34,315 nt of DNA from a virus: IMG/VR virus record IMGVR_UViG_3300042549_002156, positions 1 through 34,315 of that record, one strand, 5' to 3'. Positions 14,217 through 21,248 of this stretch are shown in pieces. The translations under genes and the position numbers were made by a program. The notes beneath the pieces were generated by a model. The model had not been told where the DNA came from. It did no database searches and was given only the letters and a program-made list of their open reading frames with translations. The first letter of the stretch is position 1, and each line of letters begins with the position of its first letter.

Positions 14217-14326
14217 GGCAGCACCACCATCAATGCGACAAACAGGATGGGCAAAACAATTACCATTGCAATGCCACTGATGATTTCGCTCAATGGCTGC
14301 GATTGGATAATTTCACGAATGGTCAT
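14213..14326 (-). CDS. 37-residue single-pass membrane peptide
   Basis: Starts at ATG 14326 with a strong SD (AAGGAG). The peptide reads MTIREIIQSQPLSEIISGIA followed by a hydrophobic segment (MVIVLPILFVALMVVLP), so it is a tiny membrane protein. It is the first gene after a 93-base non-coding gap that contains a promoter-like element, and its stop overlaps the next start (ATGA). Confidence 0.65.
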   Translation of the reverse strand: MTIREIIQSQPLSEIISGIAMVIVLPILFVALMVVLP

Positions 14327-17649: not shown

Positions 17650-17859
17650 TTAATAAAATCGTGGATAAACTTTGCGGACGTTGATGAGCGTATGCCAATC
17701 ATTGTCAGCGAGAATCTTGCCGATTTTTTCCGCCAACGCTTCTTTGAAATTTGGGTGACAACCGCCAGCTTCAACGATTGCGTCAGCCGCATCGCAAGCT
17801 GGGCAGCAGAAAGTTGGCGTCAACTCAAAGCCGCAAATTGTGCAAGTTTCAATGTTCAT
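17650..17859 (-). CDS. Small zinc-ribbon protein, first gene of the leftward operon
   Basis: A 69-residue protein starting MNIETCTICGFELTPTFCC. Cys pairs C6-x2-C9 and C18/C19-x2-C22 fit a zinc ribbon, followed by an Ala-rich stretch and a helical end (FKEALAEKIGKILADNDW). ATG 17859 has a strong SD (AAAGGGGAAAGC). It is the first gene downstream of the leftward early promoter. Function unknown; small zinc-ribbon proteins of this kind may bind DNA or RNA polymerase. Confidence 0.8.
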   Translation of the reverse strand: MNIETCTICGFELTPTFCCPACDAADAIVEAGGCHPNFKEALAEKIGKILADNDWHTLINVRKVYPRFY

Positions 17860-17879
17860 AATGCTTTCCCCTTTGGCTT

Positions 17880-17923
17880 TTTCTAAAAGAGGCATTTACA
17901 TATGTAAAGCATTTTTTTATAGG
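17880..17923. promoter_or_regulatory. Divergent early promoters sharing a palindromic operator
   Basis: The perfect 14-bp palindrome TTTACATATGTAAA (17895-17908) contains a -35-like TTTACA on each strand. Rightward: -35 at 17895-17900, 17-base spacer, -10 TATAGG at 17918-17923, leading to the HTH gene at 17954. Leftward: -35 at 17903-17908, 17-base spacer, -10 TAGAAA at 17880-17885, leading to the zinc-ribbon gene at 17859. One dimer bound to the palindrome would cover both -35 boxes. The adjacent HTH protein is the obvious candidate ligand (inference). Confidence 0.7.
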
Positions 17924-17953
17924 CGCGTTGTATCTAACGAAAAGGAACACCAC

Positions 17954-18166
17954 ATGACGTTAAGCCATCAAGCCGTAATGCGTATCTATGGACGCGCTGC
18001 GGAACATCAAATCACCGCTGGGAAACTTGCCGCTGCTGCTGGCCTTAGTCGGGTCACATTAAGCAACTGGAAGTGCCAAAGAGCTACCCCAATGTTGGAA
18101 GCATATCTGGCTGTTGAACAGGCATTGGAAGAATTGATTGCAGCCAAGACCAATGGCGCTGTTTAA
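17954..18166 (+). CDS. Small HTH regulator (Cro-like)
   Basis: A 70-residue protein with a helix-turn-helix: ITAGKLAAAAGLSRVTLSNW is a good match to the Cro/CI/XRE type, followed by a helical end (LEAYLAVEQALEELIAAK) that may dimerise. The SD AAAGGAA precedes ATG 17954. It is the first rightward gene after the palindromic divergent promoter and likely binds that operator to switch off early transcription in both directions. It is too short to be a CI-type repressor with a cleavage domain. Confidence 0.83.
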   Translation: MTLSHQAVMRIYGRAAEHQITAGKLAAAAGLSRVTLSNWKCQRATPMLEAYLAVEQALEELIAAKTNGAV

Positions 18167-19807: not shown

Positions 19808-20103
19808 TGATTTACGGAAACTCAATTCGCCAATGGGCAGAAGACCGCAACCTTATTAAAGGCAGCACGGTGCAAGCGCAATTCGTTAAGCTGATTGAGG
19901 AGATAGGCGAACTTGCTGAAGCCATTGCCAAGGGCAAGGATGAGCAATTCATGGACAGCATTGGTGATGCCTTTGTCGTGCTGACCATCTTGGCAGCGCA
20001 AAAGGATTTGGAAATTGAAGAATGCGTCGTTCACGCATGGCATCAAATCAAAGACCGCAAAGGCCGCATGGTGGACGGTGTTTTTATCAAAGAGGATAGC
20101 TGA
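19807..20103 (+). CDS. MazG-like nucleotide pyrophosphohydrolase
   Basis: A 98-residue protein with the MazG signature: EEIGELAEAIAKG (E31, E32, E35) followed by DSIGDAFVVLTILA with D50 and D54, which coordinate magnesium in this family. The C terminus (WHQIKDRKGRMVDGVFIKED) also fits. MazG-type enzymes hydrolyse nucleoside triphosphates and in phages are thought to alter host nucleotide or alarmone pools. It is the last gene of the rightward early operon before a terminator. Confidence 0.88.
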   Translation: MIYGNSIRQWAEDRNLIKGSTVQAQFVKLIEEIGELAEAIAKGKDEQFMDSIGDAFVVLTILAAQKDLEIEECVVHAWHQIKDRKGRMVDGVFIKEDS

Positions 20104-20110
20104 AACAGGA

Positions 20111-20138
20111 ATGGCCCCACCAATCAAGGCGGGGCCAT
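20111..20138. terminator. Terminator between converging genes
   Basis: The 8-bp stem ATGGCCCC (20111-20118) / GGGGCCAT (20131-20138) closes a 12-base loop and is followed by CTTTG. It lies between the ends of the MazG-like gene (20103) and the converging leftward gene (20144). The T-run is short, so efficiency is uncertain. Confidence 0.6.
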
Positions 20139-20143
20139 CTTTG

Positions 20144-20380
20144 TCAGAAGGGCATCATTGCCTTGCATCTAACGCCACGTTCAAATTCAAGCTTCCGTAA
20201 CGCTTCGCTCAACTCCTGATGGTCGGAACAATAATTTTCATCATCCCAGACGCCTTCATTGGTCTTTTCATCAATGAGCCAATAGCCCCAGAAGTTGCCG
20301 CCCACTGGAACGTCAAAGCGTTCAGCTTCAATGCGGATGCCAATGGACGCAGCCCGTGCGCGTAGGTCTTTCAAAGTCAT
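20144..20380 (-). CDS. Hypothetical orphan protein
   Basis: A 78-residue protein starting MTLKDLRARAASIGIRIEAE; ATG 20380 has SD GGAG and follows a near-consensus promoter. It contains an aromatic segment (GGNFWGYWLIDEKTNEGVW), an acidic part (DDENYCSDHQELSEALRKLE) and a basic end. It is the only leftward gene inside the rightward region and has its own promoter, a moron-like arrangement. Function unknown. Confidence 0.78.
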   Translation of the reverse strand: MTLKDLRARAASIGIRIEAERFDVPVGGNFWGYWLIDEKTNEGVWDDENYCSDHQELSEALRKLEFERGVRCKAMMPF

Positions 20381-20447
20381 ATCAATCTCCAAATTGTCAA
20401 AGAGCGGGGCCAAGCCCCATCAACAGCTTTGTGCTGCTGACAAAGCC

Positions 20448-20476
20448 CTTATAGCAGGTTCGAAACACAATGTCAA
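20448..20476 (-). promoter_or_regulatory. Leftward sigma70-type promoter
   Basis: Read leftward: TTGACA (20471-20476), 17-base spacer, TATAAG (20448-20453). The -35 is perfect and the -10 matches at 4 of 6 positions. It drives the 78-residue gene starting at 20380. Confidence 0.8.
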
Positions 20477-20523
20477 GAGGCTTTGTCATATATAAAAAAA
20501 GTTTTATTTTATGAAAAAAGGTG

Positions 20524-20552
20524 TTGACAGGATAAGCCGACGCTCATATAAG
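20524..20552 (+). promoter_or_regulatory. Rightward sigma70-type promoter
   Basis: TTGACA (20524-20529), 17-base spacer, TATAAG (20547-20552), the same boxes and spacing as its leftward partner. A 47-base AT-rich stretch with A- and T-runs separates the two -35 boxes. It drives the gene at 20598; the untranslated leader has a small GGGGC/GCCCC hairpin (20566-20578). Confidence 0.8.
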
Positions 20553-20597
20553 GGGGCATCAACAAGGGGCAGCGCCCCGCCACATAAGGAAACGACC

Positions 20598-20945
20598 ATG
20601 ACTATCACAGCTACTTTTTCAAACGGCCACACCGACACTTACAAGGGCAAGCGCGAAGTTACCGCTGCTTGGGCCATCATCCGCAAAGCTGACGGCAAGG
20701 TTATGATGTCGGGACATTCGATGGACACTGCCAAGGCTCTTAAAACAGGAACTGGCAACATCCGCACATATTTCGCCCACGGTCAGCACGTTGACAAGCC
20801 AAGCAATTATGCGGCTGCTATCATCGTATTTAACAAAATTGCCCGTGAGCATGGTTTTCGTAACTGGAAAGATTGGTATGCCGCTGACCAACTGGTTCGT
20901 GACGAACAAGCCAAGGCCTTCACAGTCGAAGTAGTAAGCATCTAA
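20598..20945 (+). CDS. Hypothetical protein under a strong promoter
   Basis: A 115-residue soluble protein starting MTITATFSNGHTDTYKGKRE; ATG 20598 has SD AAGGAAA. It contains AAWAIIRKADGKVMMSGHSM, a central beta/alpha part and a helical segment (KIAREHGFRNWKDWYAADQL). The family is not recognised. It has its own near-consensus promoter and a GC hairpin with a TTCG loop right after the stop, so it is probably made in quantity early in infection. A host-takeover role is possible but not shown. Confidence 0.78.
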   Translation: MTITATFSNGHTDTYKGKREVTAAWAIIRKADGKVMMSGHSMDTAKALKTGTGNIRTYFAHGQHVDKPSNYAAAIIVFNKIAREHGFRNWKDWYAADQLVRDEQAKAFTVEVVSI

Positions 20946-20951
20946 CCCAAC

Positions 20952-20967
20952 GGGGGCTTCGGCCCCC
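20952..20967 (+). terminator. TTCG-loop hairpin after the 115-residue gene
   Basis: GGGGGC-TTCG-GCCCCC is a very stable stem-loop six bases after the stop codon. No T-run follows, so it may be a partial terminator or protect the 3' end of the transcript. The next gene starts 39 bases later. Confidence 0.6.
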
Positions 20968-21005
20968 AACCACCAGAGGCCCAGCTTCGCCACAAAGGAA
21001 ACACA

Positions 21006-21248
21006 ATGACACCCCGCGAAAGAAACCTGACCATCATTGACCACATCGCATCAGATTACGGATATGATAGGCATGACATTCTTGGGCCACGACGGTTTAA
21101 GGTGCTGGTTGAGATACGTCACGAATGTATAAAGTTTTTCCGTGAACAGGGCTTTAGCACTCCCGAAATCGGTCGCATAATGCGCCGCGACCATAGCACC
21201 ATCGTTCATGCCCTGCAAAAGATGGCAAAAACGGAAGCAGCACAATGA
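21006..21248 (+). CDS. Free-standing DnaA domain IV-like protein
   Basis: An 80-residue protein made only of a DnaA C-terminal DNA-binding domain: IIDHIASDYGYDRHDILGPR, RHECIKFFREQGFSTPEIGR and RRDHSTIVHALQKM, which aligns with the bacterial DnaA signature (GGRDHTTVLHA type). It lacks the AAA+ domain. It should therefore bind DnaA boxes without ATP control and could compete with host DnaA or mark the phage origin; that is inference. SD AAAGGAA precedes ATG 21006 and the stop overlaps the next start (ATGA). Confidence 0.85.
   Translation: MTPRERNLTIIDHIASDYGYDRHDILGPRRFKVLVEIRHECIKFFREQGFSTPEIGRIMRRDHSTIVHALQKMAKTEAAQ

Follow-up and report, generated by a model that had tools for sequence, protein, structure and literature searches.

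A phage site with exchangeable small, probably early genes and an rRNA-type boxA-like element in one leader

A pair of divergent promoters in a phage genome appears to serve as an expression site for small host-interaction genes that are interchangeable and probably early; one of its two arms would be under host Nus-factor control. We hold this reading at a probability of roughly 60%. The material was a single virus record (IMGVR_UViG_3300042549_002156), the whole 34,315 bases of which are here called the window. According to the proposed mechanism, two near-consensus promoters of the host type would fire outward from an A-tract-rich core, each starting an mRNA with a GC hairpin leader, a ribosome-binding site and a small gene (A, the minus-strand side with the 78-residue gene; B, the plus-strand side with the 115-residue gene; Table 1). 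This noncoding chassis is retained, and the small genes to either side of it are exchanged one at a time, each side independently of the other, which would happen through recombination among phages with a common chassis. The host RNA polymerase would most likely transcribe the cargoes as soon as infection begins, and their products would target the host or its defences. The A leader also displays an rRNA-type boxA beside the ribosome-binding site. Like BoxA at suhB, this element would most likely bring host NusB-S10 to the RNA as it is made, and such recruitment, whatever the direction of its effect, would tie the output of the 78-residue gene to the host Nus machinery. The sequences themselves establish the promoters, the leaders with their covarying hairpins, the identity and invariance of boxA, the exchange of cargoes and the reuse of modules. 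A tentative proposal, which we consider possible rather than probable, is that a leader with an rRNA-type boxA puts interchangeable early genes under the host NusB-S10 machinery, with no phage N protein taking part.

To the left of the site, on the plus strand, lie a MazG-like gene and a gene for a replication initiation protein, and further left a minus-strand recombination block (Erf, exonuclease, SSB, NinB); to the right follow a DnaA-domain-IV-like protein, a small regulator-like protein and then the terminase, portal and other structural genes. The nearest relative of TerL is in Caulobacter phage DMCA (59%), so that the host is likely, by sequence similarity, to be an alphaproteobacterium. 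The protein encoded at 21006-21248, between the cargo site and the terminase genes, is a stand-alone DnaA domain IV protein that is kept in relatives. Elsewhere in the window, the perfect palindrome TTTACATATGTAAA (17895-17908) holds the -35-like boxes for two promoter-like sites that diverge and overlap, and adjoins a small HTH-looking ORF (17840-18166), an operator-like arrangement; B promoters in relatives without an A unit resemble this site (TTTACATcATGTGAA). A second, weaker B-type module occupies 14398-14213 on the minus strand (TTTACA-17-TACAGG, hairpin GGGGC/GCTCC, GCC, AAGGAG) and precedes a 37-residue hydrophobic ORF with its start at 14326.

Table 1. Features of the divergent expression site, in window coordinates.
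Feature	Position	Strand	Basis
Strong hairpin between the convergent 78-residue and MazG genes, possibly a shared terminator	20111-20138		z -5.5
78-residue gene (cargo A)	20144..20380	-	ORF, relatives, purifying selection, model pLDDT 80
boxA-like element GCTCTTTGACAATT, core as in alphaproteobacterial rrn leaders	20392..20405	-	sequence comparison
Leader hairpin 2 of the 78-residue transcript (GGGGC/GCCCC), immediately 5' of boxA	20406..20418	-	covariation, fold
Leader hairpin 1 of the 78-residue transcript	20419..20441	-	covariation, fold
Sigma70-type promoter A, TTGACA-17-TATAAG, serving the 78-residue gene	20448..20476	-	promoter scan and shuffles
A+T-rich spacer, two outward-facing A-tracts, UP-element-like	20477..20523		sequence, relatives
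Sigma70-type promoter B, TTGACA-17-TATAAG, serving the 115-residue gene	20524..20552	+	promoter scan and shuffles
Leader hairpin of the 115-residue transcript (GGGGC/GCCCC)	20566..20578	+	covariation, fold
115-residue gene (cargo B)	20598..20945	+	ORF, relatives
GC hairpin 3' of the 115-residue gene, without T-run	20952..20967	+	fold

The original prediction from the sequence placed identical promoter boxes on both strands around an AT-rich spacer and called them the best promoters in the genome, and our analysis bore out both points. At a spacing of 16-18, promoters A and B are the sole sites in the record that match the consensus at 11 or more of 12 bases, each falling one base short of it; among 200 dinucleotide-shuffled sequences the number of such sites averaged 0.465 and never exceeded 3, and not one sequence contained a divergent pair within 200 bp. 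An automatic promoter scan had overlooked both, as its -10 pattern must end in T. Between the -35 boxes lies a 47-bp spacer that is 77% A+T, with A-tracts that read TTTTTTCAT and ATATGAAAAA in relatives; it is 10 bp, or one helical turn, shorter in L024, L025, L027 and L028, with the flanking A-tracts retained. Viral loci with a relative of the 78-residue protein numbered 28 at first and 31 later, and a strict pattern applied to 29 loci including the window recovered promoter A in 28 and promoter B in 13, all of the latter in the closer group. Two further candidates were rejected: a perfect 10-bp inverted repeat (TGACAAAGCC/GGCTTTGTCA) around promoter A, considered as an operator, is absent in L008 and L014 and was taken as chance, and GCTCTTTGACA, considered as a second -35 box, has by eye no properly spaced -10 in the sequence.

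The A transcript runs through hairpin 1, hairpin 2 (GGGGC/GCCCC) and the boxA-like element GCTCTTTGACAATT to the ribosome-binding site, with GCTCTTTGACA just 5' of the latter. Both hairpins covary: hairpin 1 maintains 14 of 14 pairs, two of them with double changes, across 12 distinct leaders (168 of 168 pair cells are standard pairs), and is wholly different in sequence yet perfectly paired in L341, while the 5-pair stem of hairpin 2 has two pairs with double changes among 22 distinct leaders. Three pairs with double changes were found in the B-leader hairpin (13 leaders), which in the window has a z of -1.6. All 25 A leaders that were folded are stabler than shuffles (z -2.3 to -6.3). The leaders fall into two types, 1 and 2, which differ in sequence and retain TCTTTGACA 5' of the ribosome-binding site. 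An Rfam scan of 20000-21100 gave no match at E up to 1. The A leader RNA UGUUGAUG (20418-20425) and the B leader RNA CAUCAACA (20557-20564) are perfectly complementary over 8 nt, a complementarity that is partly retained in relatives and absent in L288.

Within the 34,315-base record TCTTTGACA occurs once, in the boxA-like element, and boxA was present in all of the 78-residue-side leaders examined. Two counts are independent of boxA itself: the set gathered via the 78-residue protein, in which 32 of 32 loci (31 relatives and the window) carry it, and a scan keyed on the A-tract and promoter, which yielded 61 distinct leaders. Of these, the 19 A-type leaders all have boxA, and the other 42 lack it and show the B hairpin architecture, imperfect in two. 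Seven type-1 and six type-2 loci came via the boxA pattern and have boxA by construction, and the A units reached from MazG that carry it (L341, L364, L371, L379 and L384) were found by a boxA-keyed scan.

The element was compared with 56 readable regions upstream of 16S genes in alphaproteobacteria (26 from the order Sphingomonadales and 30 at class level), located with a 16S-start pattern instead of the Rfam family search, which found the SSU in one of eight genomes. YTTTGACA lies within 500 bases in 33 of the 56 regions (22/26 at order and 11/30 at class level), and TCTTTGACA is present in 30. The commonest boxA forms are GCTCTTTGACATTG (12) and GTTCTTTGACATTG (6), the form in the window, GCTCTTTGACAATT, has exactly one occurrence, and so does the L341 form, GCTCTTTGACATCG. 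The phage elements, whose forms are shared with alphaproteobacterial rrn regions, are therefore rrn-type boxA as judged by sequence. The pattern CCCCGCTCTTTGACA alone is uninformative at the scale of genome contigs, where it occurs in at least 117 stretches, one of which, among those listed, has a 16S start within 1500 bases.

The boxA-like element lies 36 nt 3' of the predicted transcript start and is mostly unpaired in 25 folds, the best fold of the window leader pairing three of its bases. The A unit has a single gene, which converges on the replication-side gene in all of the 21 loci examined, so that an antitermination signal would have no downstream gene to serve and boxA would not be there for a long operon; its likeliest role would be Nus-dependent control of translation or of Rho termination at the single gene. 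A hairpin just 5' of boxA is not consistent in the rrn leaders compared (mean z -0.64, n = 29), which would disfavour full rrn mimicry. The same lack of a consistent rrn counterpart would fit another explanation, to which we give a minor share of credence, namely that the boxA-like string is not a Nus site, that the hairpins simply protect the mRNA 5' end and that the conserved GCTCTTTGACA has another target, such as the ribosome-binding site, with which it would pair, or a phage factor. The fold of the window leader can indeed pair CUCU with GGAG of the ribosome-binding site, and B leaders do well without boxA (42 of the 61 distinct leaders). However, the core is identical to that of the rrn boxA in the probable host group and is unpaired in most folds, and it is retained in two otherwise different leader types as well as where the ribosome-binding site and the gene behind it vary, all of which counts against this explanation.

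The two genes are, as predicted, 78 and 115 residues long and orphans, neither matching a known family: there was no Pfam or PHROG match at E 0.001 and no tblastn match in 50,697 phage records, and a search for a DNA-binding regulator, made as a test for a lysis/lysogeny switch, gave no Pfam, PHROG or NCBIfam match above cut-off for either protein. PADLOC returned nothing and NCBIfam only rows far below cut-off; the Imm41, DhaS, PorW and EF_HD rows were disregarded as below the curated cut-offs. An earlier AlphaFold model of the 78-residue protein had a pLDDT of 49 and was not taken to a structure search; a second, built from 15 sequences with more divergent relatives, reached 80 with the order helix-strand-strand-helix. 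Its best match among solved structures is T7 gp1.2 (7u66_G; Z 5.4, rmsd 2.0, 60 of 78 residues aligned) and an "inhibitor of dGTPase" ranks 8 in the viral library; the Z for gp1.2 is below 8, and double-stranded RNA-binding domains tie with it (Z 5.1). No sequence match to T7 gp1.2 was found, and the modelled gp1.2-like fold is only a lead.

Moron loci typically have strong promoters of their own and small orphan genes as cargo, as far as the available text of one account goes (PMC7067206), and the genes might accordingly be morons expressed in lysogens, for lysogenic conversion or superinfection exclusion, instead of lytic early genes. We consider this rather unlikely, since the PHROGs scan, which covered part of the window ORFs, revealed no recognisable integrase or repressor, and the GTDB genome contigs searched, where prophages would appear, yielded no relative of the 78-residue protein.

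The original prediction also described a self-contained cassette bounded by hairpins, a description that suits the minus unit, with its two leader hairpins and strong 3' hairpin, and suits the plus unit less clearly. There the 3' hairpin is not stronger than shuffles (z -0.64) and lacks a T-run, so that transcription probably runs on into the DnaA-like gene at 21006. With genes running rightward on the same strand and no intrinsic terminator found between 20945 and the terminase genes, promoter B could also be read as the main late promoter, its cargo merely the first gene of the packaging and structural operon. This, too, seems rather improbable, because a consensus host promoter would make a late activator unnecessary and because relatives have several complete modules, each with its own promoter, in series before the DnaA-like gene. 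A further and still less probable alternative is that the leader RNA itself is the product, an abundant boxA decoy titrating NusB-S10 from the host rRNA operons. A strong promoter, a single-stranded boxA and a leader that is kept as the gene changes would all fit a decoy, but the 78-residue gene is under strong purifying selection (pN 0.05-0.07 versus pS 0.43-0.60 in seven comparisons, the eighth pair being too similar), and the RNA would thus not be the sole product.

The exchange of cargoes is apparent on both sides of the chassis. The gene behind promoter B encodes one of eight unrelated proteins among loci with a 78-residue gene at least 84% identical, and a motif scan for the 78-residue leader found the same leader before other genes. 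A combined table of 45 loci including the window, from which L271, L279 and L287 were omitted (motif inside unrelated sequence, no promoter leader), holds seven unrelated A-side families, and the B side of the 30 leader-type-1 loci holds ten, families being blastp clusters of short proteins at E 1e-3, some of which may be distant relatives. Three A families (the 78-residue family, the GGSS type of 95-98 residues and MTYLTAKY) occur with both leader types, and in L044 a close relative of the 78-residue protein (88% to the window) is joined to the other leader type. The prediction that the two genes form a pair did not hold: they are exchanged independently, in 13 A/B combinations, with three B families each paired with two A families, and this argues against a two-part system, the genes not travelling together as those of a toxin-antitoxin system would. 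A fixed two-gene system, whether toxin-antitoxin or anti-defence pair, is thus very improbable, for although the genes are adjacent and divergent in the window, their partners are freely exchanged, the combinations found already contradict it, and 18 of the 25 loci examined beside the DnaA-like gene showed no minus unit (one of the 18 is cut off upstream).

Variation in presence, which the original prediction had proposed as a check, was found as well, the whole minus unit being missing from many relatives. The DnaA-anchored set comprises 25 of 28 loci, with L063, L067 and L073 excluded for little upstream sequence or no promoter; among the 18 loci without a seen A unit, promoter B has TTTACA instead of TTGACA in 16, L086, which is cut off upstream, shows an A promoter, and L089 showed no promoter. 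A MazG-anchored scan found the A unit in 8 of 80 loci, an undercount, as its distance rule missed others. In six relatives the A-tract and promoter B follow immediately after the MazG stop codon, and this arrangement is the natural empty state. A broader module rule gave 304 instances and 94 distinct modules with 31 cargo families, "distinct" merging identical leader-protein pairs only, and many IMG/VR contigs being near-duplicates. The MTYLTAKY family stands behind both leader kinds, A and B, and several loci have two B modules and L088 three modules, which implies that a small gene travels with, or inserts behind, its own promoter-hairpin unit.

The cargo families that were scanned have almost no database match, and none of the cargoes matched a known anti-defence protein in the library searches made. 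Because the cargoes are small, unrelated and replaceable and stand behind strong host-type promoters, our analysis points to early host-directed functions, as in an archaeal virus system (PMC11065993), and the predicted cassette made immediately on infection, for host takeover or anti-defence, is plausible. New here are the interchangeable chassis and the rrn-type boxA leader; the original prediction had overlooked the boxA-like element and the promoter's reuse in modules. If the proposal of NusB-S10 control without a phage N protein is true, phage early-gene output would read, or draw on, the capacity of the host to build ribosomes. The chassis would also be a searchable tag, making the small genes behind it, in 31 unrelated families, candidate host-takeover or anti-defence genes. 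The site also lends itself to direct tests of how a phage may use the rRNA antitermination signal of the cell at single small genes; the open literature searched, which leaves most subscription journals uncovered, provided no earlier example of such use.

The lambda nut site, in which a boxA is followed by a boxB hairpin and works with the N protein, is similar in being a phage leader with a boxA and a hairpin. Unlike lambda nut, the leader described here has its hairpins 5' of boxA, the ribosome-binding site comes after boxA and the unit carries a single gene; the window proteins scanned included none recognisable as N-like. T7 gp1.2 is an inhibitor of the E. coli dGTPase, and its likeness to the 78-residue protein is one of modelled fold only.

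Closer in placement are the cellular mRNAs of suhB and a ParE-like toxin gene, with an rrn-type boxA within 50 bp of the start codon, where boxA recruits Nus factors at suhB and regulates the toxin gene (PMC5725501, Baniulyte et al., in its available text, which gives the gammaproteobacterial boxA as GYTCTTTAANA). The start codon 8 to 21 nt 3' of the boxA core (45 loci) resembles this suhB-type placement (PMC5725501), whereas the elements described here belong to a phage, read GCTCTTTGACA or GTTCTTTGACA, have hairpins 5' of boxA and precede interchangeable genes. The SAS/ESAS elements of Cluster K mycobacteriophages, in the portion of the source available (PMC3203893), likewise repeat before the start codons of genes of different families, with a 13-bp sequence GGGATAGGAGCCC proposed to act in translation initiation and an inverted repeat just upstream in about half; unlike the phage chassis they are described without a promoter or boxA, and GGGATAGGAGCCC had no match here with up to two mismatches. 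In SIRV2 and other archaeal viruses, a shared promoter with varying cargo was used to find anti-defence genes, and early timing and two activities were tested (PMC11065993). The promoter elements there are archaeal, and the available text of that study describes no divergent chassis, leader hairpins or boxA; the phage chassis nevertheless shares with it the central arrangement of one conserved strong promoter, or regulatory sequence, before many small, unrelated genes of unknown function (PMC11065993).
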